DNA of 64,000 nt. Source: Pyropia yezoensis (Eukaryota > Rhodophyta > Bangiophyceae > Bangiales > Bangiaceae). The DNA lies in NCBI GenBank assembly GCA_009829735.1, contig CM020620.1:25700951-25764950 (forward strand), written 5' to 3'. Numbering within the stretch: position 1 is the first letter of the stretch; every line of letters begins with the position of its first letter. The position numbers and the translations under genes are program-made. Of the stretch, positions 1 to 58,085 are shown in pieces. Below the pieces are notes generated by a model. That model was given only the letters and a program-made list of their open reading frames with translations. It was not told where the DNA came from and did no database searches.

Positions 1-1
1 T

Positions 2-610
2 GCTCATCGAGGAGCCTCTCGAAGCCGCGGGCGAGCTGTGCCGACGTCTTCCCCGCGGGTCGCGACTCCGACCTTGGGGGGTGTGGAGCCGACTCAGGCT
101 CCACCCTTTCAGTTCCTCGAACCCTTCCCCGACGTGGCGTTGGGTTCGCTACGGGTCCGAACTCCGGTCCCGATGCCGATTGCGCGTGGCGTCGGCGAGA
201 TGCTTCCCAACTTGGGAGCCATCATGTATGACGCCACGGTGGAGGCCTCACTCGTGGCCTCCCTTGACACGTTGGCTTGGGTCACCCGGCGTGTCAGTCA
301 CTTCCTCGCGTCGGGCGACTCAGCCACGGCGCGACAGTCATTGGCAGCTGAGGTCACTCGCCTCGCGGTTGGACACGAGTTTGTCCAACGGCTGCTGTCG
401 ACTCAGCAGCAGCTTCCGCGTCACGGAGGGAGTACCTCCGGACATCTTTCTTACGACGGGGATGGGTCCGCGAGTCGGCGGGCTCCTCCCAGTGCTTCCA
501 CTCCGGGGCCCTCCCGAGTGGGTTACGCCCCTCCGCTACCGGCCTACGACCCTGGGGGTTCGTGGTCGGCCGGTCCCTATAGTGGTGGGGGTGGGCATAT
601 GGAACGCTAG
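2..610 (+). CDS. Antisense ORF of element B, 5'-truncated by the window edge
   Basis: The open frame from base 2 to the TAG at 608-610 encodes about 202 residues of a protein homologous to the C-terminal half of the element A antisense ORF. Both share a PNLGA motif followed by a helical segment: here SLVASLDTLAWVTRRVSHFL, in A TTLVRTISWLAASTATL. They also share a second helix (EVTRLAVGHEFVQRLL here) and a low-complexity tail. It lies in the same relative position, just beyond the end of pol on the opposite strand. Function unknown. Confidence 0.75.
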   Translation, partial: AHRGASRSRGRAVPTSSPRVATPTLGGVEPTQAPPFQFLEPFPDVALGSLRVRTPVPMPIARGVGEMLPNLGAIMYDATVEASLVASLDTLAWVTRRVSHFLASGDSATARQSLAAEVTRLAVGHEFVQRLLSTQQQLPRHGGSTSGHLSYDGDGSASRRAPPSASTPGPSRVGYAPPLPAYDPGGSWSAGPYSGGGGHMER

Positions 611-738
611 AGTCAGCGGTCGAACGACTTGTTCTTTTCTTGGCGAGAAGAGTGGTGTGTGTTCTTCTCGTTTTGTATTGTGCCATAGTCGGCTTTGTTA
701 GTAGAGAATCTTTGAAGAACCATGGTATGCGTTTGTAC

Positions 739-869
739 TCATGGTTGGCTTGCCGCTCTGCTCTGACCTGGAGCAGGGACTTCATCCCCCGACGTACGAG
801 TGCTACGTCGGCGTATAGATATGCCCGCAGCCTGGCAGTATCTACGGACCTTCTCTACTGGTAGGTCCT
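739..869 (-). pseudogene. pol: Pol of element B, C-terminal fragment
   Basis: Minus-strand translation gives DLPVEKVRRYCQAAGI followed by a basic tail and a stop at 739. It aligns with the end of the element A chromodomain, DLPAEKVRAYCARNEI. The fragment is cut exactly at the LTR of element A. The rest of B pol up to the protease is absent from the window. Confidence 0.85.
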
Positions 870-1338
870 TGTGGCAAAAACCACTAGCACACACGGCACC
901 CAAGTTGGGGCGGTGTGCTAGGGCTGCCTCCCGTGTCGGGGGAACCGGAAGAAGTGCAAGTCGCACACACTCTGTCCCTGTTGTGGGGCAAACCCCCCAC
1001 GGACAAACAAGAGGATGGTGTGTGGTCCAACAGTTTCTTGGTCGGGACGGGGACGCAGGGCCAAGCCCCGCTGTCCCTCCCCTTATCCCCCCAGGGTCCA
1101 CTCAGAATCTCGCCACCCAGAATCTCCCACCCCAGCACCTGCCCACCGGGCCACACGAAAATTCAAGACGATAAATGCAGAAAACCCTCAAATCCAAGTT
1201 GGATTTACTACTAAGCTAACTATCACAAACTTAGGGAATATGGACCCAAATGCAGGGGGAGGAACGGATCAGGCTAGTGGCCTGCCGCCCCTTGCATGGC
1301 ACGTGTTGCCCCCCTACGTGGGGGTCAATACTGCCACA
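870..1338 (-). repeat. LTR of element A (3' LTR in the element's orientation)
   Basis: A 469-bp sequence with 7-bp inverted termini TGTGGCA/TGCCACA, repeated almost exactly at 9777-10245. Differences noted by eye are CACCC/CACTC near 1120, TATCAC/TATCCC near 1225 and TACGTG/TACCTG near 1317. Confidence 0.95.
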
Positions 1339-1351
1339 CTCCCCTCTCCTC
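1339..1351 (-). other. Polypurine tract of element A
   Basis: On the minus strand the 13 bases next to the 3' LTR read GAGGAGAGGGGAG, an uninterrupted purine run exactly where plus-strand DNA synthesis of an LTR retrotransposon is primed. Confidence 0.85.
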
Positions 1352-1676
1352 AGTTCCGACCGACCCGGTCGGCCCTGTGAGGGGGTGCGTAAACGCACGT
1401 CTCGGCGTTGGGGGCGCGACTTGCTGTCCCCCATCGAGTACGTAACACGGATGTGGAGGCGGTCACGTTGACCGCCCCTCTCCTCAAGCTTGCCCACTCG
1501 GCAGCTTGCTCTCCTCAGTTCACACTTCACCATCACCACCACCTCCCCTTCCCCTTCCACTGGGCCGCCCCACGCTGGGGAGGCCACCCGTATACCCACG
1601 ATCCGAGTCCCCCTCAACTCGAGGCGGGTCTCGTGCTGCGATAGCCAGAGCGTCTCTCCCCAACTTGGGGAGAGCC

Positions 1677-3620
1677 ATGGCGACTCCGGGAGTGGAGACG
1701 GACTCTCTTGACGAGCGCATGGAGGACACCTCCTACGGGGCAGCACCCGCCGGGACTTCCGGCGGGGGCTCCGCGATCGCTCCGGGGGACGGGACTCCCG
1801 CGTCACCCGGCTTTGAGTTGACGGCGGGGTCTCCTCCGGAGGCGGGACAAGTTGTTCCGCGTGAGGCCTTGGGGCGGTGGTTTTACCCCGCTTGGCCTCT
1901 CTATGAGGAGGGGCTGACTGTTCTTAGCTGTGGCCGACTTGGCGCAGCGATGGGCCGGGTATGGGACCGCCTACGGGAGAAGTATCCCCGTAGGGTCGGG
2001 TTCCCTGCCGACTTCAGGACGGACCAGTTTGCCTTCCTGGACGATGAGGAGGTTGAGGACGTTCAGCGTGCCAAGGCCATGGTGGACCGCGGGGGAACTA
2101 TCCCGGGTCCCGGCGACTTGCCGACCTTCACGTGGGACGCTGTGGCAACTCGCCCACCGTACCTCCACGAGGCCGATCCACACACTCATCACTTTGATGT
2201 GCGGATGATAAAAGACTTCCGGCGAGGTCCCTACTTGGTGACCTCGGCTCAACTTGAGTTTCCTCAACAGTCTGCTGCCAGTAAGGAGCAGTACTATCCG
2301 AAGAAGCCCGAGTGGTGGCCTCAAGTTGAGGTCCCCTACGGGTTCCCGGCGTTGTTGCCACGGTTGCTTGACCACTTCGGCTCCGTCATGTTGACGGCTG
2401 CCCCTGATCACCTGGTGTGGGCCATACTGGCCACCCAGTGGCTCCTCGAGGTCATGTCGACCTGGTTGTCCTGTGTTCAGCGGCGGGGGATGCTCTGGCA
2501 TCTCCCCCTCCGGCTCCTCCAAGGTTTGGAACAGCTCACCCCTCAGCTAGTTGCTGAGGGGTGCTCATCAGGACAACTCACTCTACTTGAGGAGATGCTC
2601 CGGCTCCATAAGTTTATCGAGTGGGAGAGCATTGAGCACAAGTTGTGCCGCCCCACTCGTGGGCCCAAGGACGATGGCGCACTTCGCCAGTTCGTGTGGG
2701 TCGCTCGTGAACTACACGACGGCCGTGTGGTCCTACGAGAGGGGTTGGGCATCGGGGACTACCCGTATGCCCCGGGGGTGGATCGCCGCACTGCGCCACC
2801 CCCGGACAAGCCCATAGTTATGGCCGTGCCGTCCTATGATGACCACATGACTCAACCCACTGCGGGGGCCCCAAGTCGGGGTCGCAGTCACACCCGGGTA
2901 CCGCCACCTCGGCGTGCCCCTCCGCTTCCTCCTGTTCCTTTCCAGCCTCACGGGAACATCCCGATCAGCGTGGCCGTGGAGTCTTCCACCCCGGTGTCCC
3001 CCAACTTGGGGGCCACCCTCCTGACGGTATACCCCAAGTTGGTGTTGCCGCCCACGCCTCTAACCTCAGAGATGATGATCACCACGTTGGTGCGCACCAT
3101 TTCCTGGTTGGCCGCGTCGACCGCAACCCTACAGAGTTCCGAGACTCCTCAACTTGAGGAGCGCGTTCGTACTGCAGTGGCGACCGCGAGTTGCGAGTCG
3201 GTGGCGGAGTTTATGACAGCCGAGTTGGCTCGCATTGGGGCTATTATGCCCCAGCCAGCCCCACTTGGGCGTGGCAAACGTCGCGCGAGCCGGGCATACT
3301 CGCCTCCTCGCCGTCGTCGCCGACACTCGCGGCGCTCTCCTTCCGTATCGGAAGACGAGTTGTCTTACTCCGTTTCGGAGTCCTCTACCCCGTCGGAGAC
3401 GGAGTCTGTCCAGCGTCTGCGTCGCAAACTTGCGCGCAAGACCAGGCAGAAGAGTGGCCACGGTCGGCGCCACTTGCGCGACCGTGAGGGGCGCGACGGT
3501 TCCGACTTGGAGCCGCCGCCCCCTCCAACGAGTGGAGACCGTTATCGGCGTGGGTCTCGCCGCTCGCCTCCACGTGAGGGCGAGGGCCGTGGAGTGGGAG
3601 AGTCTAGCATGCGTGCCTAG
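1677..3620 (+). CDS. Antisense third ORF of element A, function unknown
   Basis: A 647-residue ORF on the strand opposite gag-pol, between the end of pol and the 3' LTR. I start it at the first ATG (1677). The central part (about residues 60-370) is rich in W, F, Y and L and looks globular, with segments such as PYLVTSAQLEFPQ and LLDHFGSVML. The C-terminal 120 residues are arginine/serine-rich (RS-like) and end in a basic tail, which would suit nucleic-acid or nuclear association. I recognise no domain. Element B carries a homologous ORF at 2-610 with the same organisation, so the frame is maintained and is not a chance ORF. Antisense or additional ORFs are known in some plant gypsy lineages, but I cannot match this protein to one. 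Confidence 0.8.
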   Translation: MATPGVETDSLDERMEDTSYGAAPAGTSGGGSAIAPGDGTPASPGFELTAGSPPEAGQVVPREALGRWFYPAWPLYEEGLTVLSCGRLGAAMGRVWDRLREKYPRRVGFPADFRTDQFAFLDDEEVEDVQRAKAMVDRGGTIPGPGDLPTFTWDAVATRPPYLHEADPHTHHFDVRMIKDFRRGPYLVTSAQLEFPQQSAASKEQYYPKKPEWWPQVEVPYGFPALLPRLLDHFGSVMLTAAPDHLVWAILATQWLLEVMSTWLSCVQRRGMLWHLPLRLLQGLEQLTPQLVAEGCSSGQLTLLEEMLRLHKFIEWESIEHKLCRPTRGPKDDGALRQFVWVARELHDGRVVLREGLGIGDYPYAPGVDRRTAPPPDKPIVMAVPSYDDHMTQPTAGAPSRGRSHTRVPPPRRAPPLPPVPFQPHGNIPISVAVESSTPVSPNLGATLLTVYPKLVLPPTPLTSEMMITTLVRTISWLAASTATLQSSETPQLEERVRTAVATASCESVAEFMTAELARIGAIMPQPAPLGRGKRRASRAYSPPRRRRRHSRRSPSVSEDELSYSVSESSTPSETESVQRLRRKLARKTRQKSGHGRRHLRDREGRDGSDLEPPPPPTSGDRYRRGSRRSPPREGEGRGVGESSMRA

Positions 3621-3731
3621 TTGGCAGCTGCCTTTGTTGTGAGAGTGTGAGGGTTAGGGCTGTAGTTAAAAGCTACTCTGCGTACCACTTCGACTTGAAG
3701 CACTCTCTTGGCACTGTTGCTCGGCCTTCCC

Positions 3732-6700
3732 TCACGTTGAGGGAGGGCTGTTAGGGTCTATCTCATTCCGGGCACAGTACGCCCGGACCTTCTCAGCGGG
3801 AAGGTCTTCCACATACTCCCACGTATCATCCTTGGCTTTGTAGCCAAACCAACGCACCCTCAACATGAGGCGGTTAGTGTCTTCATCCCATCCGTGGTCG
3901 ATGAACTTATCAAACACGTACTCCTGCGGGCCCTGTTTGGCCGCAGGCAGTGAGGGGAGGCGCCACGCTTCCAAAGCACGCGCCCAAGCTGGGTCGCCTG
4001 CAGGCGGTGGTGCAACTTTGACCACGTCCTGTCCGTTCACTGTGCGGACCCCATCGTCACTTTCGATGGTGAAGCGCCGCCCATCAGTACGAAGGACCTG
4101 GTACGGTCCCTTCGTCTGGAATACCAGCTTACCCCCAGTTGGGGTGTGCGAGTGTACCAGCACCCAGTCACCCTGCTCGGGAACATGTTTAGCATTGCGC
4201 ACCTTTTTGTCAAAGGTACGCTTGTAGCGCTTTTGTGCTTTGTCCATCTCAGCCCTGACTTTAGGGATGAGGTTTTCAAGCCTAGCGGCGAACTCCGCCT
4301 TAATCTCAGTAGGAGTAGGCGTACTGCCACCATCCTCCCTAGTTGGGAGCGACCGCCGCACGGCAATAGACCGCACACGACGGGGGGTCACAAAAGCGAG
4401 GGGTACTTCCCCGGTAGATGAGTGAACCTGCGAATTGTAGGCAGTAGTAAGGATAGAAATATATTGGTCCCACGTCTTCACGTGCTCACTCACATAGTGG
4501 CGCAGCTGCCTAACAATAGTTTTGTTGAAGCGCTCCACCTGCCCATTAGTTTGTGGGTGGTAGGGGGTGGCATAGTTTGCCTTAACCCCCAACATATCCA
4601 GCACTCCCTGAAACAGTACAGACGCAAATTGCGGTCCATTGTCCGATAGTGTACTATCCGGGATGCCATACGCGGCAACCCAGTGATCTAGGAAGGCTGA
4701 CACGACCGACATGGCCGTGATCTCCGCCAGTGGGATCGCTCGCGTAAGTTTCGTGCAGCGGTCACAGATGACCAGGAGGTACTGGTTGCCCTCCTCGGTC
4801 ACTGGCAGTGGCCCAAGGATGTCCATCGCCAACGCGGCGAAGGGCTCCTTGGCCGGGAACAATAACATAGCCGTACTAGGCCGCCGATCCATCAGACGGT
4901 TCTGTGCACAACTTGTGCAGGCAGCCACCCAACTGTAGATGTCCACCACCATGGACGGCCAGTAGTACCTGGTCCTCAGGGTCTGGTACAGTTTACTAGA
5001 CCCCAGGTGTCCACCCGTGGGAGCGTTGTGCTCCCTCTTAAGGATACTGTCCTTGAGGGATGCGGGGACGACAAGTTGTTCGGTCCCCTGGAATACCCCC
5101 CTCCTCATGAGGAGGCCATCGTCTCCCAGAAAGAAACGCGTCTCTACCACTGTATCCAGTATATCCCTCTGCGACTTGCAGAAGGGATCCTTGGCCTGGG
5201 CCTTCACCACCTCGTCCAGGGACAGGGGCAAGTACTTCTTGTTCCCTGGCGTCTCGGGGTTCAACGCCTGACCCGAGCGCGTGACTACCCCCACGATGGG
5301 GATGTCCTCATCAACTGGGTTAGTGTCCAGCCCCTCGGTGGGTACCCGAGAGAGGCCATCGGCAAGGGCATGTTGCCTGCCAGGTCGGTACTCAATGTCA
5401 AAGTTGAAGGGTGCCAGTCGCACCCTCCACCGGTTGAGACGAGTGTTCGTACAGTCCGTCTTGAAGATAAACTGCAACGCGCGGTGGTCACAGCGGATGA
5501 GGAACTTCTCACCCTCTAGGTAGTGACGAAGTGACGTCACCGCCCACACCACTGCGAGTCCTTCCAACTCGGTGACTCCGTAGTTCTTCTCGGCCGAGTT
5601 CAGCCCCTTACTAAAGTATCCCACCGGCAAGTACTCCTTGTCCGGCTGCTGCTGAAGCAACACACAACCAAGTTGGTCGTAGCTAGCGTCCACATCCAGG
5701 ATGTAGTGGCCTCCCAACCTGGGAATAGCCAAGATGGGGGGCTTCAGCAGAAGGTCCCGAAGAGTCTCAAAGGATTCCTGCTCCGCCCGACTTGGGGGAG
5801 GCAGGTTCTTCGGTAGCGTTGAGCTCACTAGCTCATTCAACGGCTTCGCCACCTTGGCGAAGCCCTTGGTGAAACGTCGGTACACGTTACACATCCCGAG
5901 GAAGCTCCTCATCTGGGTCTGGGTCCGGGGGTACAGAGCCTTACGAATGGCCCTCAAGTTCTTCTCGTTAACACTGAGACGCCCCGGATGGACAACATGT
6001 CCCAAGTACTCCACCTCTTGAGTAAAGAGGTGGCACTTACTCGCCTTCAGTGACACACCGGCGTCAGCAAGTAGCTTGAACACCTGGCCAAGATGGCCAA
6101 TGTGTTCCTCCGGACTTCGGGAGAACACAATGATATCGTCTAGGTACACAAGACAGATCTGCCACCGTACTCCGGCCAGAATCATGTCCATAGCGCGCTG
6201 GAAAGTTGCCGGCGCGTTACACAGACCAAACGGTAGACGCTTGCACTGGTAGGTACCACAGTGACAGGTAAAGGTAGTTTTATGCCTGTCCTCCGGGGCA
6301 ATGGGAACTTGCCAGTACCCCGCGTTACAGTCCAGGGTAGAGAACACGTTTGCCTCCCCCAGAGAGTCCAGACAGTCATCCATCCTAGGTAGGGGATAAC
6401 TGTCCTTCACCGTGCTCTCGTTGAGCTTACGGTAGTCGATACAAAACCGGGGGGTCCCATCAACTTTGGGGACGATAACCACCGGACTCGCCCACTCGGC
6501 GTTGCTGGCCTCGATCACATCGAGGGCCTCCATGCGAGCAACTTGCTCCTTAACGAGGGCCCTTGAACGAGGTCCTCCCCTATACGGTTGTTGGCGTATA
6601 GGGGGTGCACCGGGCTTCAACTCGATCCGGTGTTGGGTGGCTCTCATGAGTCCCAATTGACCATCCCACAACTTGTGATATTGGTCCAAGAGGCGTTCAA

Positions 6701-7715
6701 CTTGAACCCTCAACCTGGGGGGGACACCCTCCATGTTCACATGGGGTCGAGGAGAGGCGGCCGACTTGGCTTGATGCTTCTCCTTTCCGGACTTCGGGTC
6801 GCTACTTGCGCCCGCGTTGAGGGTGACCGCTACTACCGGTCCCTCGTGTTGGTCGATATAGCCGAACTTGGCTCCCGACTTGAAGTACTTGGGCGAGGGG
6901 CTCAGGTTCATCACCTGGATCCTCCACGGGACTCCGGCTTTGGAGTCCATCGTGCCAAGGGCAACATGCACTTGGTGCTTGCGAGCAAGACGGGGGTGAG
7001 GGTGCACCAACCCGTTCCCCGTAAAATCAGTTACAACATCAACGTGCGCCACCGAGTTGGGGGGCAACGTGACTTTGCGGGCTAAACGCAGGGTAGCAGT
7101 AAACCCTTCCCTCACCGAACAAACAGGCTTCGACTGTGAGACTGTCACAGGAGCCACAGACTTTCCCTTACCAAGGATGGGGATAGTCTCCCCATTCATC
7201 AACTTTACCCAGTACTCAGGGCCACAAATCAAAGGCACTTGTGTAACAACATAAGGGGTACCCAGAAGCAGGGGTACCGATATATTCTCAACTACGCCAT
7301 AGGTCACGTCGACCTCATGGGTCCCCAACCTAGTTGGTAGGGTCACGGCACCAACTATGGGAAGTACCCCACCATTGATGTCAATCATATGGTCAGCTTT
7401 GGACCTCCAGTGTTGGAGCTTCACCTCCTTTGGTAATAGCGACTTGCGTATCAAGGAGGCTCCTGACCCGGTATCAAGTACGATACGGGTACAGCATGCA
7501 CAGCCGGGGGCAAGTTGCACCCGTCCAGCCACCTGGAAGTTCTCACCCGTCAGCACCGCGATGACCCGACGTGGGTTTACGTTCTTGGGGAGTCCTACCC
7601 GAGGTGGGCGGACTCCCTTAGGTCGCCGCAGTATCCGGCACGGTTGGTTCGTCCTCCTGGCCCACTTGGCCGAGGCTGCCGTTGTGAGCTTCGGACGACC
7701 AGCTCCAACGGTCAT
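3732..7715 (-). CDS. pol: Pol of element A: protease-RT-RNase H-integrase-chromodomain
   Basis: A 1327-residue uninterrupted polyprotein for replication and integration of the element. Domains in order: aspartic protease with LDTGSGASL near residue 80; reverse transcriptase from about residue 360 to 570 with the catalytic YLDD in CLVYLDDIIVFSRS; RNase H beginning ILDVDASYDQLG; integrase with an HHCC zinc site (ending CTSC) and a DDE core (D in LAMDILGPL, D in LSDNGPQFAS, E in QTNGQVERFNKT); and a C-terminal chromodomain of about 50 residues containing the aromatic cluster VRWFGYKAKDDTWEYVEDL. All catalytic residues I looked for are present, so the enzyme is probably functional. It starts at an ATG that overlaps the gag stop by one base pair step (ATGA), suggesting coupled re-initiation or frameshifting. 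Confidence 0.96.
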   Translation of the reverse strand: MTVGAGRPKLTTAASAKWARRTNQPCRILRRPKGVRPPRVGLPKNVNPRRVIAVLTGENFQVAGRVQLAPGCACCTRIVLDTGSGASLIRKSLLPKEVKLQHWRSKADHMIDINGGVLPIVGAVTLPTRLGTHEVDVTYGVVENISVPLLLGTPYVVTQVPLICGPEYWVKLMNGETIPILGKGKSVAPVTVSQSKPVCSVREGFTATLRLARKVTLPPNSVAHVDVVTDFTGNGLVHPHPRLARKHQVHVALGTMDSKAGVPWRIQVMNLSPSPKYFKSGAKFGYIDQHEGPVVAVTLNAGASSDPKSGKEKHQAKSAASPRPHVNMEGVPPRLRVQVERLLDQYHKLWDGQLGLMRATQHRIELKPGAPPIRQQPYRGGPRSRALVKEQVARMEALDVIEASNAEWASPVVIVPKVDGTPRFCIDYRKLNESTVKDSYPLPRMDDCLDSLGEANVFSTLDCNAGYWQVPIAPEDRHKTTFTCHCGTYQCKRLPFGLCNAPATFQRAMDMILAGVRWQICLVYLDDIIVFSRSPEEHIGHLGQVFKLLADAGVSLKASKCHLFTQEVEYLGHVVHPGRLSVNEKNLRAIRKALYPRTQTQMRSFLGMCNVYRRFTKGFAKVAKPLNELVSSTLPKNLPPPSRAEQESFETLRDLLLKPPILAIPRLGGHYILDVDASYDQLGCVLLQQQPDKEYLPVGYFSKGLNSAEKNYGVTELEGLAVVWAVTSLRHYLEGEKFLIRCDHRALQFIFKTDCTNTRLNRWRVRLAPFNFDIEYRPGRQHALADGLSRVPTEGLDTNPVDEDIPIVGVVTRSGQALNPETPGNKKYLPLSLDEVVKAQAKDPFCKSQRDILDTVVETRFFLGDDGLLMRRGVFQGTEQLVVPASLKDSILKREHNAPTGGHLGSSKLYQTLRTRYYWPSMVVDIYSWVAACTSCAQNRLMDRRPSTAMLLFPAKEPFAALAMDILGPLPVTEEGNQYLLVICDRCTKLTRAIPLAEITAMSVVSAFLDHWVAAYGIPDSTLSDNGPQFASVLFQGVLDMLGVKANYATPYHPQTNGQVERFNKTIVRQLRHYVSEHVKTWDQYISILTTAYNSQVHSSTGEVPLAFVTPRRVRSIAVRRSLPTREDGGSTPTPTEIKAEFAARLENLIPKVRAEMDKAQKRYKRTFDKKVRNAKHVPEQGDWVLVHSHTPTGGKLVFQTKGPYQVLRTDGRRFTIESDDGVRTVNGQDVVKVAPPPAGDPAWARALEAWRLPSLPAAKQGPQEYVFDKFIDHGWDEDTNRLMLRVRWFGYKAKDDTWEYVEDLPAEKVRAYCARNEIDPNSPPST

Positions 7716-9601
7716 TCGTTTCCCGCCGACTTGGCGTCCGAATCTGAGGGCGGGGAGGAAGACGACGAGTCCGAGGACGACGTGTCCGCCTCCTCCGCCG
7801 AGGGTGTGGCGACCGCAACGACCGGTCGAGACCCACCCTCGCGGCGTGAACGTACTTCGTTCGTAGCCGACTTTTTACTCGCATTCCTAACAAGTTGTTG
7901 GATGCGTGTACTCAACTTGGGGCAATCATATGCCCAGTGACCATTGGAGTTGCAGTTCCAACACCGATGGTCCGTTCCGGGAGGGGTCTTCCCAACTGGG
8001 GAAGACGAAGGGATACCCTAGGAAGTTCCCACGGCAGCTACCACCCTCTCCTTGCGGATTCGGCGTGCCTCTCTCAACTCTCTGGCCTGGCGCGCCTCCT
8101 CCCGTTCCTTGGCCAACTCGGCCTGACGCTCCTGGCGTTGTTCCTCCCGCAACTTGCGGTAGGCCTCGCCTCTGCGATAGGCGAACCTGGCCAACTCGGC
8201 CAGGGTCGCCCGGGCAGTGTTATGCTCCCGGGTCTCCATCCGGACTGACCAATGGAGTCCCTCCACAAACCGACTCTTCACCACAGCTTGTGGATGAAGA
8301 AACCCACAAAGATTGTTGAGCTTACGGACTCGCTCCGCAAAGGACAACTCGTCCTCCGCCTCTTCCTGATGGGCTTGCGTAAACTCCTCGACTTGAGAAG
8401 CCAACGCTGCCTCATCAACCATGGCTCTCAACAACCAGTTGACGAGCTCCAAATAGGACGTCACCTCCCCAGCGCCTCCACTTGAGGAGCTGGGCATGAC
8501 GGACATAAGTTCTGTCAGTAGGTCGCCCTTCGTAAACTCCTGTAGCATGTAAAAAGCCATGCCTTCACTTATGGCATTGTCGTCACAGGCTTTTGTGAAA
8601 CGACGTAGGAACTCAAAGACACGGAGGGGGGGAGTTCCGTCCCACTCCGCTTTGTGCCCAAAAGAATGAAGTGCATTCTTCTTGGCACGGCCCATGGCTC
8701 GGGCCTGGTCAGGACCATACGCCACCGACTTGTTGTGGAGGGCGTAGGTCTCACAGTCAAAGATCCTCTGGTAGACCGGGTTGGCTACCTGGATCTTGGG
8801 CGGCACCTCACGTTGAGGGAACAGCCGCTGTGGCACTGGGGTAAGTTCACTCTCAGTGCCTGTAGTCCGGCGCGGCGCGCTTGGTGTAGCCGCCGGCGTT
8901 TCCGGGGGGAACTCCCCCGTGAAGGGCGTACGCCCCACCGAGTATGGTGTGGCTCCCTCGTTGGGAGTCACAGGTGTCGCCCCCAGTTCGGGGCGACCAG
9001 AGATAGGCGTAAGGGGGGATTCCCCCTGCGCCTGCGGGCTCGAAAGCCCCAATCCGGTTTGGACATTAAGGCCATCTGGCAAACTCGCCACAATCTGATT
9101 CAGAATAGTATTCGTCATCGTGACCATCAGGTCCGGCAAAGTCTGCCGCAACACATTGGTCGCCTCCCGACGGACAGTTTCCGCGAGGAGTGGATTGACG
9201 ACTCCAGTTGAGTCTCGGTCCGCCTCCGGGAGTCCACCTGAGGGGTAACCACGTTCCTCAGGGGTCTCAACCGGGGGCATGGGCGCGAGCCCATCGCCGA
9301 CCAACGGAGGTCCACCGTCCTCCGAAAGCCTAGTTGGCGACGACTCCAAGCCAAAGTTGGCTCCAACCCGAGTGGAACCCGCGGGGACAGTCCTCACCCC
9401 TTGGGACGTTCCCGTTGAGTATACCACACGGTGGCCAGACTTCGGCCCACCCACATCAGAAGTGTCACCCGAGTGAACTCCCGACTGAGTCGGGGTGGCC
9501 TGTTGCCCGCCCGTACTTCCAGTCCTGCTGGCTTGAGGGACCTCTAGTCCCTCTGCGACCCCAGGTAAACCCACCTGTGTCTCACCAGTATTCAAAGGCA
9601 C
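7712..9601 (-). CDS. gag: Gag of element A, interrupted by an in-frame TAG
   Basis: Structural polyprotein of the retroelement. The first part (9601-8021) is proline-rich and then has a capsid-like helical domain ending in a charged coiled stretch. A TAG at 8018-8020 interrupts it. The same frame continues to 7712 and encodes a nucleocapsid zinc knuckle, C-X2-C-X4-H-X4-C, at about 7955-7910, so the downstream part belongs to Gag. No ATG opens this frame near 9601 (that codon is GTG). The ATG at 9657 is in another frame, whereas Gag of element B starts with a good ATG, so a small indel near 9600-9650 is likely. The final TGA (7714-7712) overlaps the pol ATG as ATGA. Confidence 0.85.
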
Positions 9602-9753
9602 TGAAGTACGTGCGTCACCCGTGTACTCCCCGACGACGGGGGGTCCGAGCTAGCCATGTTGGCTGACGATCCGTATGAAACGGTCCAAGACCACCGTTTC
9701 TCTGAGACAGAGGGCCCCCTACACCCGGGTGCACCCGGAGGTAAAGTTTACCT

Positions 9754-9771
9754 CTGTCCCCTGCTGCTCCA
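9754..9771 (-). other. Primer-binding site of element A
   Basis: Five bases inside the 5' LTR the minus strand reads TGGAGCAGCAGGGGACAG. It starts with TGG, as expected for pairing with a tRNA CCA end. Element B has TGGATCAGCGGGGGAGAG in the same place with the same 5-base spacer. It does not match the usual initiator-Met PBS (TGGTATCAGAGC); I cannot name the tRNA. Confidence 0.7.
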
Positions 9772-9776
9772 CGAAA

Positions 9777-10245
9777 TGTGGCAAAAACCACTAGCACACA
9801 CGGCACCCAAGTTGGGGCGGTGTGCTAGGGCTGCCTCCCGTGTCGGGGGAACCGGAAGAAGTGCAAGTCGCACACACTCTGTCCCTGTTGTGGGGCAAAC
9901 CCCCCACGGACAAACAAGAGGATGGTGTGTGGTCCAACAGTTTCTTGGTCGGGACGGGGACGCAGGGCCAAGCCCCGCTGTCCCTCCCCTTATCCCCCCA
10001 GGGTCCACTCAGAATCTCGCCACTCAGAATCTCCCACCCCAGCACCTGCCCACCGGGCCACACGAAAATTCAAGACGATAAATGCAGAAAACCCTCAAAT
10101 CCAAGTTGGATTTACTACTAAGCTAACTATCCCAAACTTAGGGAATATGGACCCAAATGCAGGGGGAGGAACGGATCAGGCTAGTGGCCTGCCGCCCCTT
10201 GCATGGCACGTGTTGCCCCCCTACCTGGGGGTCAATACTGCCACA
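9777..10245 (-). repeat. LTR of element A (5' LTR in the element's orientation)
   Basis: Second copy of the 469-bp repeat with the same TGTGGCA/TGCCACA ends. It directly abuts the protease coding sequence of element B at 10246. Confidence 0.95.
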
Positions 10246-10520
10246 AATGAGAGAGGCAGCAGAGCCTGTGTCGACTATGACACGAGAGGTAAACTCATAT
10301 CCATCCTGCAGCCAGAGTCGAGCTGCGACCTGATAGTTACTCCCTACCAGCTCTGACACAATCCGACTCGGGTCGTGCTTCTGAGGAGGGACCTTGTCTC
10401 TAGGCCTCACCCCTCGAGGTCGAGTCAGGACCTTCACTCTCCCATGGGTCGGTGAGTGTGAAGCAACCCGCTTCATTACCGCTGGAGCCTTTGGGTCAGT
10501 CTTAGTCCCAGCGGCTAGGC
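10246..10520 (-). pseudogene. pol: Pol of element B, N-terminal protease fragment
   Basis: Start of B pol. An ATG is present at 10476, but the frame is open further upstream and overlaps the end of B gag in the -1 frame, suggesting gag-pol frameshifting. The aspartic protease motif VIVDTGSAASLI is encoded immediately beside the junction with the LTR of element A, where the frame is broken. The equivalent motif in A is IVLDTGSGASLI. Confidence 0.85.
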
Positions 10521-12278
10521 GTTTCCCTCACCCGACTCGGATGATGGAGTATCCTTGCCACTTGAGCTGGGGGAAGAAGTTTCCCCCTTCTCAAGCGTGG
10601 ACTCATTCTCTGACTGAGGTTGAGTCATGGCCGTCACACGTGTGGTGTGCGGCCGGGTATCCGAATCAGTCCTCGGAATACCGAGCTTCCCAATACGAGC
10701 CAACAGGGCTCTCAGTCGAACGTCCAGAGTGGGGCATTGGGCTGCCCAGTGTCCCGACTTGGAACACTGCCAACACGGCCGATCACTCATTGACGCCGAT
10801 GGCCCCGCTTTTCCCTGTGACTTATCAGGGATAGCGGCCACCATACCTTCCGTCTCTCGAGTTGAGGACGAAGGTACTGCAGGGTACGTCCGCGTGTAGG
10901 AAGGCACCCTTGCAGTTCTGCGGAAGCGACTTGCTTCCACTCCCTTAGCTTCTTTCTCTCGTTCCTTCCGCTGCTCAGACACGAGCCAGCGGTACTCATC
11001 ACCCTTAGTCTGGGCGATGCGTGCCAACTCCGCCAGAGTCATGGTCGGAGTATTACGCTCTCGCACAGTCGCTCGAGCTGCTCGGTGGACACCCTCCACA
11101 AAGCGTCCCTTAATGACTCCTTGGGGATATAGGAATCCACAGAGGACGTTCAGCTGACGGAGTCGTTCAGCGAACTCCCGTTCCTCTTCACCCTTACTCT
11201 GGGTGGCGCGGTTGAACTCTTCAACCTGCACAGCCAAGGAAGCCTCGTCTGCGTGAAGACGAAGGATCCAATTAACCAACTCCAGGTAGGAGGTCACCTC
11301 ACCCGGGTTCCCACCATGCCGACTTGGCATGACGTTCATCACCTCGGAGCGGAGTGGCTCCTTGGTGAAGTCCTGAAGCATGAAAAACGCTTCAGCTTCA
11401 GAGACATTATTGTCATCGCAGGCTTTTGCGAACTTCCGCAAAAAGTGGAAGACCTTCAGGGGTGGTGTCCCGTCCCATTCTGAACGGACCCCGAAGGATT
11501 GCGCAACGTGTTTCTTGCGCCGGCCCAGGGTACGGGCCTGACTATTCGAGTAGGTCAACGACTTGTTGACCAACCCATATGTCTCACAGTCGAAGACATC
11601 CTTGAACAATGGATTATTCACCACTATCTTTCCTGGGACGACTCTAGTCCCAAGACGGTCCGTGTGAGTCACACGACCACGTCGGGTAAGATCCTCTTCA
11701 CCCGACTTGCCACTTGCAGAGGACTCAGACTCTGAGTCCACCTCACGACGGAGAGTACGTCGAATCTCCCGTCGCTTCTGACGCCTCGAGGCCTGCTCAG
11801 GCGGAGGGGTGTCCCCCTTCAACGCCTTCCCCACCTCCTCTCGCACGACTTGTGCGATGGCAGTCATCACCGAGTCATCCACGATACCGGATGAGCCAGG
11901 TGGAGCTTGACTCGAGCTCCCACCCGGTCCTTCCGACACCAGTCGTGGCGCGGACCCACCAACCCGGGGTACGGAACTCCCCGTCCCGTCACCTCTGCCG
12001 GTCGGCGGTCCCATGCCGAAGTGAGTGTCGTTACTCCCCGAAGAGGTTGCCGGAACCTGACGCTGGCTCGGCGCTCCCACCGGAGAAGGGCGAACTCCGC
12101 CCGTCTCTTCCGGGGACGGCCTGGGAAGGAACCTGGCCGACCGCCGTCGGGGTCCAACCTCTGGACCCACCACATCCGCACTGCCCGGCCTGGGTGGTAC
12201 TCCGCCCGTCGGGGGAGGACTACGCTCCCCCTCCCCAGGTACACTCGGCGCAATGGGGGGGTCTCCCTCACCAGCCAT
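10515..12278 (-). CDS. gag: Gag of element B
   Basis: 587 residues from the ATG at 12278. The N-terminal 200 residues are proline/glycine-rich and disordered. A capsid-like domain follows (about residues 220-440) that is clearly homologous to A Gag: both have FDCETY...NKS, SEWDGTPPLKVF or AEWDGTPPLRVF, and TSYLELVNW. The nucleocapsid has one zinc knuckle, CWQCSKSGHWAAQC (CX2CX4HX4C), and the protein ends in an acidic serine-rich tail and a TAG. Unlike A, it has a normal ATG and no internal stop. Pol follows in the -1 frame. Confidence 0.9.
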   Translation of the reverse strand: MAGEGDPPIAPSVPGEGERSPPPTGGVPPRPGSADVVGPEVGPRRRSARFLPRPSPEETGGVRPSPVGAPSQRQVPATSSGSNDTHFGMGPPTGRGDGTGSSVPRVGGSAPRLVSEGPGGSSSQAPPGSSGIVDDSVMTAIAQVVREEVGKALKGDTPPPEQASRRQKRREIRRTLRREVDSESESSASGKSGEEDLTRRGRVTHTDRLGTRVVPGKIVVNNPLFKDVFDCETYGLVNKSLTYSNSQARTLGRRKKHVAQSFGVRSEWDGTPPLKVFHFLRKFAKACDDNNVSEAEAFFMLQDFTKEPLRSEVMNVMPSRHGGNPGEVTSYLELVNWILRLHADEASLAVQVEEFNRATQSKGEEEREFAERLRQLNVLCGFLYPQGVIKGRFVEGVHRAARATVRERNTPTMTLAELARIAQTKGDEYRWLVSEQRKEREKEAKGVEASRFRRTARVPSYTRTYPAVPSSSTRETEGMVAAIPDKSQGKAGPSASMSDRPCWQCSKSGHWAAQCPTLDVRLRALLARIGKLGIPRTDSDTRPHTTRVTAMTQPQSENESTLEKGETSSPSSSGKDTPSSESGEGNA

Positions 12279-12572
12279 CTCCACAAGAGTCACGTGGAGT
12301 CAACCAAAACGACCAAACGGTGTCCAGAGTCGGGGATCGTCAGCTAGGGAGTTCCTAGAGCACGTTCCACCCCTCCACCTACCTCAAGGAAGGCGGTGAG
12401 GTTTCCCGAAACTCCGGGTCTCCCACCAAGACTCACGGTGGCCAACCTCGTCACCCAGCGAACGCTCGGAACGTAGGCGAGTCGATCGTGTCACCGGAAG
12501 TCTCGGTGCCGAAGGGGGAGAGGGGCCAACTTGGTCCCGTCTCGGGTCAAAGGAGGTACCAAAGTCGATATC

Positions 12573-12590
12573 CTCTCCCCCGCTGATCCA
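12573..12590 (-). other. Primer-binding site of element B
   Basis: Minus strand TGGATCAGCGGGGGAGAG, separated from the LTR end (TGCTACA) by five bases, as in element A (TGGAGCAGCAGGGGACAG). The paired position and sequence support both assignments. Confidence 0.65.
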
Positions 12591-12595
12591 CCAAC

Positions 12596-12990
12596 TGTAG
12601 CAGTACTCCCAACCACCAACCCCGAGTCAGGGAAGGAAGAGGAGTATTGCCGATATCCCAACTTGGGACACCGGAAGCAAGCACCTCCACACAGCCGAAC
12701 ACGGAACTTGCGTGTGGTGAACGGGTCAGCTCACCAAGGCACGAACAAGATGTGTCGGAGCCAGACGGTGTTTACTTGCTTGGCCAGCCAAGGTGGGCCC
12801 TCCCCGCCTTGCTGTCCCTCCTTATCAACCCTCCTCACACGCTCACGCAACCCCTCAAAACACTCAGAAAATGAACCCTCGAACAAACCAATCATATCAC
12901 TCCACATGCAAAGCACTCAAAGCGTAGAAATCCGTCTGGCTCCCGTGCAAGAATCCCAAGAAACAAATACCAGCAGCATTACCCTGCTCT
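12596..12990 (-). repeat. Probable 5' LTR of element B
   Basis: The inner end is well supported: TGTAGCAG next to the PBS, matching TGTGGCA in A. The outer end is placed at CTGCTCTA (12983-12990), a 6/8 match to the expected inverted repeat CTGCTACA. The interior shares short blocks with the A LTR, such as CTTGCTGTCCCTCC followed by TTATC. The other LTR of B lies outside the window, so the outer boundary is provisional. Confidence 0.55.
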
Positions 12991-13329
12991 AGTATGTCGG
13001 AAGTCCTAGTCGAATTTCCGTCCAGAAGTCAGAAGTTTCACCATCGTGGGTCGGGTGAATTTCGACTTCCGGTCAGGACCACTTGACCCGAATCTCCAAA
13101 GTATTGGTACCGAATTCCGGCCCAATCTCCCACAGTCATGTGCGGGTGTTGTGCTTTGATTGCTTTTATTTGAGGGTTTATGCACGATCGAGAGCGGGGA
13201 ATAAACGTGCGCGCGCGTGTCGATAAATAGTAGGACCACGCACTGGGGGGGCAAGGACCGTCCGCGAGAGGGAAGAGATGCCTCTAGTCGTATGGGCGCC
13301 GGCCACGGCGGCCGCGACGCCCAGCGACG
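12991..13329. other. Intergenic, no gene seen
   Basis: Less GC-rich flank next to the outer end of element B. The related segments near 13000-13040 and 13055-13085 are partly inverted copies of one another. No coding region can be supported. Confidence 0.4.
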
Positions 13330-56336: not shown

Positions 56337-58085
56337 CTAGAACAGAGACTGCTTCTTGCCCAAAGGTTGGCGGTTGTTGTACTCTCGTAGCCAGCTTGTA
56401 ATGAAGTGGATGTTGTCCACGTCGCTCATCTCCTTGGCCTTGGCCGCCGTCGAGTTGGCGCGCAACCCCAACGTGAGGGCCATCATGAGCGTCAAGGGTC
56501 GCCCGTCACGCCGAACGATGACCGCCACTTGCACGTCACCGACAGCGTTGGCGTGCCCTTCCTTGTGCAGCTCCCGCAGCGCCGTCAGTCGATGCGCGCC
56601 GTCCACGAGTAAAAAGCTATCCTCGGCCCCGGGACACTCTGGGTCTGCGCATACGGATATCATTCCGTACGTGGTCGTATAACCAAAGTCGCGGTACGAC
56701 CGCAGCTGTTCGTCGACAGTGCCGCGGTTGATCGTACGCACCGTCCGCGGGGCAATGCGAATGGCGTCGATCGGTACATGCCGCTTCGACGCGATAACGT
56801 AGTCGCTGGAAGGACCGACCCACGTAGGCGCCGACGCCGTCACCACGCCACTGTCCATATGCGGTACTGGAACATCCCCTGGTGCTGGTGGCAGCTGCTC
56901 ATCGTCAGACGGGGCCCGAGAGTTGCTGTCAGAACGACGGTCATCAGCGACGTCACGGCCATCGCCGTCTCCACCACTGCCCGGTCCGCCGGACCCACTC
57001 GCTCCGCCGGTGCCAGCACGACGACCAGAACTGCCGCCAGCGACGCCACGACCGTCGCCGTCTCCACCACCGCCTGGTCGGCCCGCCCCACCCGCTCCCG
57101 CTGATGCACCACCTCCGCCTCCACCACCGCCACCACCACCGCCACCCCGACCGTCACCCCGACCGTCACGCTCGGCGCTACGACTGCGACCACGCTCAGC
57201 GTCACGGGAAGTCGTGCGAGGTCGGTCAGCCCCGCCATCGGCCCGACGTCCGCCGTCATCGCCTCCGCGTCCACCACGATCGGTGCTTCGAGCGTGACCG
57301 CGACCACGATCCGTAGCGTCACGGGAAGTCGTGCGAGGTCGGTCAGCCCCGCCATCAGCTCGACGCCCGCCGCCATCAGCCCGACGTCCGCCGTCATCGC
57401 CTCCGCGTCCACCACGATCGGTGCTTCGAGCGTGACCGCGACCACGATCCGTAGCGTCACGGGAAGTCGTGCGAGGTCGGTCAGCCCCGCCATCAGCTCG
57501 ACGTCCGCCGCCATCGGCCCGACGTCCGCCGTCATCGCCTCCGCGTCCACCGCGATCGGTGCTACGAGCCTGACTGCGACCACGATCAGTGGTGTCACGG
57601 GAAGTCGTGCGAGGTCGGTCGCCACCGCCATCAGCTCGACGTCCGCCGTCATCGCCTCCACGTCCACCGCGATCGGTGCTTCGAGCGTGACCGCGACCAC
57701 GATCGGTAGTGTCTCGGGAGGTCGTGCGAGGCCGGCCGGCGTCGCGAAAAGCGTGACCAAGTCGGTCAGTGCCGCGGCTATCCCGACGTCCGCCGTCATC
57801 GTCACCACGTCCGTCGCGATCAGCGTTTCGCAGGGCGACTCCTCGGTCGCCATTATCGGATCCGTGACCGATGCTGCCACCACTAGAGATACCGCCACGT
57901 CCACCACCGCTACCACCACCACTACCACCACCGCGGGCACCGCCACGCCCACCATCGCTACCGCCACCACGGGGACCGCCACGGGCACCGCCCCGGGCAC
58001 CACCCCGGGCACCGCCACCACCACCGCCGCCACCACCGCCACGGCCACCACCACGGGCACCACCACCGGCCTTTCCCGGTGCCAT
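56337..58085 (-). CDS. ParB/sulfiredoxin-fold protein with RGG/RD repeats
   Basis: 582 residues from the ATG at 58085. Residues 1-330 are glycine/arginine-rich: GGARGGARGG tracts, then several copies of a repeat containing RGHARSTDRGGRGGDDGG, which resemble RNA- or phase-separation-prone RGG tails. The C-terminal domain (about 435-580) has the ParB/Srx signature: HVPIDAIRIAP, then VDEQLRSYRDFGY, then LLVDGAHRLTALRELHKEGH, where D-G-x-H-R is the conserved nucleotide-binding motif. ParB-family proteins use this fold as a CTPase or nuclease; no helix-turn-helix for parS-like binding is evident. It heads the minus-strand series leading to the oxygenase-like protein. Confidence 0.75.
   Translation of the reverse strand: MAPGKAGGGARGGGRGGGGGGGGGGARGGARGGARGGPRGGGSDGGRGGARGGGSGGGSGGGRGGISSGGSIGHGSDNGDRGVALRNADRDGRGDDDGGRRDSRGTDRLGHAFRDAGRPRTTSRDTTDRGRGHARSTDRGGRGGDDGGRRADGGGDRPRTTSRDTTDRGRSQARSTDRGGRGGDDGGRRADGGGRRADGGADRPRTTSRDATDRGRGHARSTDRGGRGGDDGGRRADGGGRRADGGADRPRTTSRDATDRGRGHARSTDRGGRGGDDGGRRADGGADRPRTTSRDAERGRSRSAERDGRGDGRGGGGGGGGGGGGGASAGAGGAGRPGGGGDGDGRGVAGGSSGRRAGTGGASGSGGPGSGGDGDGRDVADDRRSDSNSRAPSDDEQLPPAPGDVPVPHMDSGVVTASAPTWVGPSSDYVIASKRHVPIDAIRIAPRTVRTINRGTVDEQLRSYRDFGYTTTYGMISVCADPECPGAEDSFLLVDGAHRLTALRELHKEGHANAVGDVQVAVIVRRDGRPLTLMMALTLGLRANSTAAKAKEMSDVDNIHFITSWLREYNNRQPLGKKQSLF
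57200..57740. repeat. Coding minisatellite in the ParB-like gene
   Basis: About four units of 100-150 bp built on GTCACGGGAAGTCGTGCGAG and ACGTCCGCCGTCATCGCCTC, encoding the RTTSRDxTDRGRGHARSTDR repeats. Confidence 0.85.

Follow-up and report, generated by a model that had tools for sequence, protein, structure and literature searches.

The window analysed here, 64,000 nucleotides (nt) of Pyropia yezoensis (GenBank assembly GCA_009829735.1, contig CM020620.1, positions 25,700,951 to 25,764,950), begins with two long terminal repeat (LTR) retrotransposons, A and B, which both carry an array of small hairpins with diverse stems around one loop core. The centre of these hairpins is the triplet ACT or AGT, written AST below (S for C or G), and in counts of hairpin shares an AST site was scored as a hairpin when its first four arm pairs were formed, or five of six. 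Both elements have the Ty3/gypsy order of reverse transcriptase (RT), RNase H and integrase between LTRs. Their features in the window are listed below, with the AST hairpins of each open reading frame (ORF) set against the number after synonymous-codon shuffling, which preserves protein and codon usage.

870..10245, minus strand: element A, an LTR retrotransposon with 72 hairpin centres among 341 AST sites.
870..1338: LTR of A, 469 bp, TGTGGCA...TGCCACA, with hairpin centres at 960, 1198 and 1277.
9777..10245: second LTR of A, with hairpin centres at 9867, 10105 and 10184.
1506..3620, plus strand: antisense ORF of A, 704 amino acids (aa), 20 AST hairpins against 1.6.
3732..7715, minus strand: pol of A, encoding RT, RNase H, integrase and a chromodomain that scores below threshold; 27 AST hairpins against 2.0.
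8018..9601, minus strand: gag-like ORF of A, 12 AST hairpins against 1.0; 58% identity to the gag of B over 218 aa.
1..869, minus strand: part of element B, equal at 98.7% to 2500-3368 of L029 (the fuller copy of B, used for counts); hairpin centres at 162, 211, 432, 628 and 800.
10246..13134, minus strand: part of element B, equal to L029 6997-9800 (10246-13049) and 1-256; 17 hairpin centres from 10536 to 12707.
10515..12293, minus strand: gag of B, 12 AST hairpins against 1.4.
1654..1674: hairpin CTCTCCCC-AACTT-GGGGAGAG, the RACTT version of which occurs 763 times in the genome.
2537..2563: longest pentaloop hairpin, an 11-bp stem with the loop TAGTT.
8187..8203: hairpin centred on 8195, retained in L015 despite five changes, all at third codon positions, among them two swapped pairs and a C-to-G change of the centre (codons read by hand).

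The original prediction, made from the letters of the window, described perfect stems around RACTT or AAGTY, and this observation is confirmed and proves broader than was described. All 17 hairpins that it listed have exactly the positions and stems given there. In 1-12,670, stems of at least 3 bp flank 28 of the 56 RACTT sites and stems of at least 4 bp flank 19, where plain chance would give well under one; in the remainder of the window, 36 RACTT sites give one stem of at least 3 bp and none of at least 4 bp. For AAGTY, stems of at least 4 bp were found at 9 of 31 sites in 1-12,670 and at 1 of 33 elsewhere. The absence claimed for the other 51 kb thus holds for RACTT stems of at least 4 bp, and fails for one AAGTY hairpin at 57754-57768. 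Many stems do differ from each other, although the LTR pair repeats its own and TCCC/GGGA is present at both 205 and 12656, and the range once given, 205 to 12,668, holds hairpins but is too narrow, with centres at 162 and 12707.

The loop that had been noticed is part of a wider rule, N-A-(C/G)-T-N, mostly closed by C-G. We scored the complementarity of bases at equal distance on either side of each position in 1-12,700 (distances 3-7) and grouped the scores by central triplet. ACT (0.426, 237 sites) and AGT (0.403, 226 sites) stand alone among the 64 triplets; CGT comes third at 0.308 and all others are at or below 0.302. Elsewhere in the window, ACT and AGT together scored 0.264 (731 sites, distances 3-8). 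At least four of six arm pairs were formed at 127 of 463 AST sites in 1-12,700, with about 21 expected, and the pair next to the loop was C-G in 46 of 71 four-pair stems. Hairpins with an ACGTT loop also occur, for example at 1458-1476, 3728-3744 and 8806-8818, CGT being the weak third centre (202 sites).

Stem lengths rise abruptly rather than gradually. In A and B together, perfect stems of 1 and 2 bp show no excess (107 and 31, against 133 and 35 expected), and the counts then jump to 45 against 9 at 3 bp, 39 against 2.4 at 4 bp and 26 against 0.6 at 5 bp, with stems of up to 11 bp. Altogether, perfect stems of at least 3 bp flank 137 of the 687 AST sites, with about 12 expected, and a mismatch on the loop side followed by four pairs was found 22 times against 2.4 expected. 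For stems of at least 5 bp, the excess over shuffles was 5.1-fold at 5-nt loops and 3.4-fold at 3 and 7 nt (1.5-fold and 1.3-fold, respectively, in a control stretch). It was 1.0-fold at 0 nt and 1.3-fold at 4 nt, and loops longer than 30 nt gave a ratio of about 1. In-silico folding of 1-12,600 gave better structures than shuffles on both strands (mean z -1.74 and -1.97, 42 windows), against -0.37 and -0.45 elsewhere (45 windows). The hairpins are spaced somewhat more evenly than random (coefficients of variation 0.78 and 0.73), in part due to hairpin width. No known RNA family in Rfam matched 1-13200 at E <= 1.

Chance, base composition or codon usage could in principle produce many small stems, and each of these is exceedingly improbable as the origin of the array. 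Dinucleotide shuffles, one of the checks that the original prediction had named, gave 53 perfect stems of at least 4 bp with 5-nt loops against 169 observed (five shuffles), and 14 against 71 for stems of at least 5 bp (six shuffles). Codon shuffles, the other check (100 per ORF), gave z = 7.2 for the antisense ORF, 7.0 for pol and 6.4 for the ORF at 8018-9601 at 5-nt loops; the ORF at 10515-12293 reached z = 2.0 at 5-nt loops and 5.1 at 7-nt loops, and four control ORFs of the window stayed at |z| <= 0.7 at 5-nt loops. The ORFs of the elements carry 8-27 AST hairpins each, against 0.6-2.0 after shuffling, and the other retroelements of the genome do not reproduce the array either.

Among the sampled elements of the genome, which is large and GC-rich, the array is restricted to A and B. 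The fuller B in L029 has 54 hairpins at 348 AST sites, a B-type antisense-ORF stretch (L043) has 9 at 59 and the diverged antisense part of L018 has 5 at 39. Outside A and B, in the sampled retroelements and the rest of the window, shares were 0-3.6%. Family C had no hairpin at its 208 AST sites, three stretches around L036 had 1 at 134, the window past 13,200 had 7 at 718, and other retroelement stretches had 2/69, 1/40, 2/55, 2/164, 1/247 and 3/119. In a sample of twenty 10-kb stretches, three of them masked in whole or in part, that were scored in 2-kb bins, every bin with at least 40 AST sites that scored at least 0.33 was A-type sequence (L014, the start of L015, L018 and L021); bins with few AST sites scatter more, the highest being one in L027 that scored 0.43 from 15 sites. 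Moreover, the signal is retained, at 0.33-0.42, in all 22 aligned sequences of the antisense region, which are L018, the window and 20 of those at 42 listed places; their pairwise identities average 0.84 and run from 0.72 up to roughly 0.9 and higher. The RT core of A is 73% identical to that of L036 and 77% to that of B. Since the RT-core tree leaves the order of A, B and L036 open, it fits one origin of the array as well as two. Two stretches of viral contigs fit a pattern, neither being confirmed as a relative. In related species, retroelements have protein relatives with 50-60% identity (P0002-P0007).

The reading that we tentatively prefer, with a confidence a little short of even, is a selected array of stem-loops in A and B that is read through its loop, most likely by the element's own Gag or nucleocapsid (NC) protein on single-stranded nucleic acid. 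According to this model, each copy would carry about 50-70 dispersed stem-loops. The recognised part would be the loop, which mostly reads C-[R A S U N]-G in gag-pol sense, and the stem would only have to present it, with about 3-8 bp of any sequence sufficing. The array would be kept by selection largely via synonymous codon choice, so that individual hairpins could be lost and gained at a stable number and under the same loop rule. Many weak sites might then jointly mark or compact the element genome for particle assembly through the nucleoprotein of the element. Selection is favoured over mutation by the 3-bp threshold, by the scattered synonymous differences between copies (below) and by the lowered rate of change in stems, which is 0.62 times that of sites with the same base, CpG context and codon position. 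We infer, in addition, RNA rather than DNA as the substrate and Gag as the reader. The original suggestion of selection for many hairpins thus stands as far as a large, element-confined excess with one loop core on many stems, beyond dinucleotide and synonymous shuffles, is concerned. Its alternative, insertion of a hairpin-making module, is not supported: in the alignments made, versions with and without a hairpin interchange by substitution, with no change of length.

Several observations weigh against a selected array of RNA stem-loops. Centres of ACT and AGT are about equally used, and mismatches in near-perfect stems show no preference for the wobble pair (sense orientation: 43 G-T and 54 A-C, p 0.31; coding orientation: 38 and 43). 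A preference for G-U would be expected of an RNA stem, so its lack and the strand symmetry argue against a plain RNA stem. The loop of B has no polarity, its first base being a purine in 45 and its last a pyrimidine in 44 of 54 hairpins, and codon phase matters little (34, 36 and 32 hairpins in the three phases). One-sided stem mutation, which the original prediction had named as telling against it, was found in part: stem pairs differ among copies on one side 107 times against 3 compensated changes, the copies not being independent, and in the set of 22 sequences 567 changes were one-sided, while of the double changes 16 were paired and 29 unpaired, which does not clearly exceed the controls. 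Many of the one-sided changes are private to copies that seem decayed, and one pol hairpin that A shares with B has a base pair swapped on both sides (TGCAC/GTGCA and TGCGC/GCGCA). Covariation in the 22 sequences, taken over 92 pairs at 17 centres, points clearly in neither direction: pairing is kept in 16 of 45 two-sided changes, compared with 10-32% in six slid controls and with 95 of 382 at the 72 centres that are not AST. Chance hairpins at non-AST centres also change only 0.75 times as often as matched sites, so only part of the reduced stem change is AST-specific. Finally, relatives that lack the array replicate too.

Strand symmetry and the missing wobble preference keep two other readings under consideration. 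One is recognition at the DNA level, in which double-stranded palindromes, cruciforms or hairpins of single-stranded complementary DNA (cDNA) would be read by integrase, by some host factor or by the reverse-transcription complex. In double-stranded DNA the centre is symmetric, ACT on one strand being AGT on the other, and the equal use of both and the indifference to wobble pairs would follow. However, the stems are arbitrary and would thus be displayed only by a folded strand. Moreover, the loop of A is polar, in gag-pol sense, with a purine as first base in 61 of 72 hairpins (160 of 269 at non-hairpin AST sites) and a pyrimidine as last base in 40 of 72. On balance we consider recognition at the DNA level unlikely.

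The other reading is templated mutation, in which a polymerase, perhaps the RT of A or B, would switch template at AST, moving to the nascent or opposite strand, and copy one arm into the other, which would leave lineage-specific mutational scars filtered by protein function. It can draw on the same strand symmetry and on the equal decay to G-T and A-C, on the presence of hairpins in every codon phase and in coding and non-coding sequence alike, and on turnover. Turnover affects the hairpin sites and leaves the loop rule intact: of 27 pol hairpins of A, 25 can be aligned to B (DNA 58-61% identical), and only 5 of these 25 have an AST centre with at least four of six pairs there. At third codon positions, A and B are less alike in the stems of A (0.30 and 0.29) than elsewhere (0.36 and 0.40), as expected if stems were built there. 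A few sites among copies carry multiple changes (2078 in L018 and 7911 in L015), and the loop at 2383-2397 appears as its reverse complement in L018. Template switching is, in addition, known to create and maintain hairpins, as described in the cited part of PMC8794818.

Known template switching does not depend on any one triplet, however, whereas ACT and AGT are singled out here, and arms of 1-2 bp show no excess. In the two changed hairpins with the clearest reading, the differences are scattered, lie mostly at synonymous sites and do not form a block: the one at 8195, and one at 2355 that is present in the L018-type lineage and absent in A, with six differences, all synonymous (codons read by hand). 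Nor did the eight antisense-region copies L001-L008 hold any multi-base gain that builds a full stem. Among the hairpin differences between present-day copies, both scattered and clustered ones were seen. We regard templated mutation as rather improbable. The 2383-2397 site itself is a palindrome with its centre reverse-complemented in L018 (CATGTTG and CAACATG), possibly a flip of the hairpin loop.

Among known RNA elements, the iron-responsive element presents an AGU pseudo-triloop on a stem of variable sequence. The hairpins of A and B resemble it in having an AGU loop on a variable stem and differ in that they also use ACU and sit in coding sequence. Dispersed RNA packaging signals of MS2 and hepatitis B virus are likewise scattered stem-loops with variable stems and one short loop motif, at least in the portions cited (PMC6281560; PMC7612645), the motif being (x)xYA in MS2 and RGAG in hepatitis B virus (PMC6281560). 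In contrast to these, the array lies in LTR retrotransposons, has a strand-symmetric centre, includes an antisense ORF and shows no wobble preference.

Ty3 and Ty1 RNAs, as far as the cited accounts go, also have structured regions spread over an LTR retrotransposon genome; they differ in a mosaic structure with packaging, dimerisation and primer sites in a structured 5′ end, and a loop-coded hairpin array is not among the features described in those parts of the accounts (PMC11381356; PMC4974528). The known packaging and dimerisation sites of yeast LTR retrotransposons and of human immunodeficiency virus 1 (HIV-1) are placed at the 5′ end of the RNA in the same source (PMC11381356). Template-switch hairpins have short perfect stems of unrelated sequence, as here, and were shown for RNA genes; in the section cited they show no tie to a single central triplet or element lineage (PMC8794818). 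The nearest case of inverted repeats inside genes is that of the mitochondrial coding palindromes of Nematomorpha, which are likewise numerous perfect inverted repeats within protein genes that retain function. These repeats reach 284 bp, are mitochondrial and come with no loop rule in the cited part of the report (PMC6649704), as opposed to about 3-11 bp on a nuclear-sized contig here.

It is possible, though doubtful, that the array amounts to a genome-wide hairpin code of the elements, in which an A-S-T core on arbitrary stems recurs at intervals of about 130-175 nt in gag, pol, the antisense gene and the LTRs, to be read by a cognate factor on either strand. We know of no described system with one loop core on arbitrary stems throughout a genome and reading of either strand. 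The open-access literature that we searched describes neither such a structural code over protein code nor triplet-specific templated mutation. If selected, the array would be a strong structural code overlying the protein code; if mutational, it would represent triplet-specific templated mutation. An array that two families carry and that close relatives in the same genome lack offers a natural experiment on element self-recognition.

With regard to the elements themselves, the two LTRs of A are identical over the 300 bp compared. The chromodomain at the end of its pol matches Chromo with 21.1 bits (E 0.00029), below the cut-off of 25.1 bits, and no Chromo match at E <= 0.001 was listed for B. 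A zinc knuckle in the gag of B scores 20.0 bits (cut-off 20.8), and 21.2 in L029, which further contains a pol with broken frame (60% identity to that of A over 1269 aa), gag and an antisense ORF. The 704-aa antisense protein had no Pfam match, and its predicted structure has a mean pLDDT (predicted local distance difference test) of 33. A protein search with it gave a single relative, P0121 at 95%. It is 33% identical over 393 aa to its counterpart in B (L029 809-3109, plus strand) and 27% over 115 aa (E 5e-9) to a relative in family C (L035 1377-1715, minus strand). As a correlate of the array the antisense protein was rejected, because family C has this relative yet no hairpins.

In the window, B is interrupted by A. 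At the site of A, B lacks about 3.6 kb, most of it pol, and the flanks of A (869/870 and 10245/10246) show no target duplication, which together suggest a rearrangement and not a plain insertion. AST was also considered as an integration target and rejected, since none of six left flanks of A insertions ends in NASTN (left flanks only, assuming a 5-bp duplication). In L001 and L002 an LTR of A directly adjoins the far end of another A interior, as if the LTR were shared by two elements. In L021 (7953-9832), a copy of A is nested inside another, with an antisense-ORF hairpin some 15-20 bp away.

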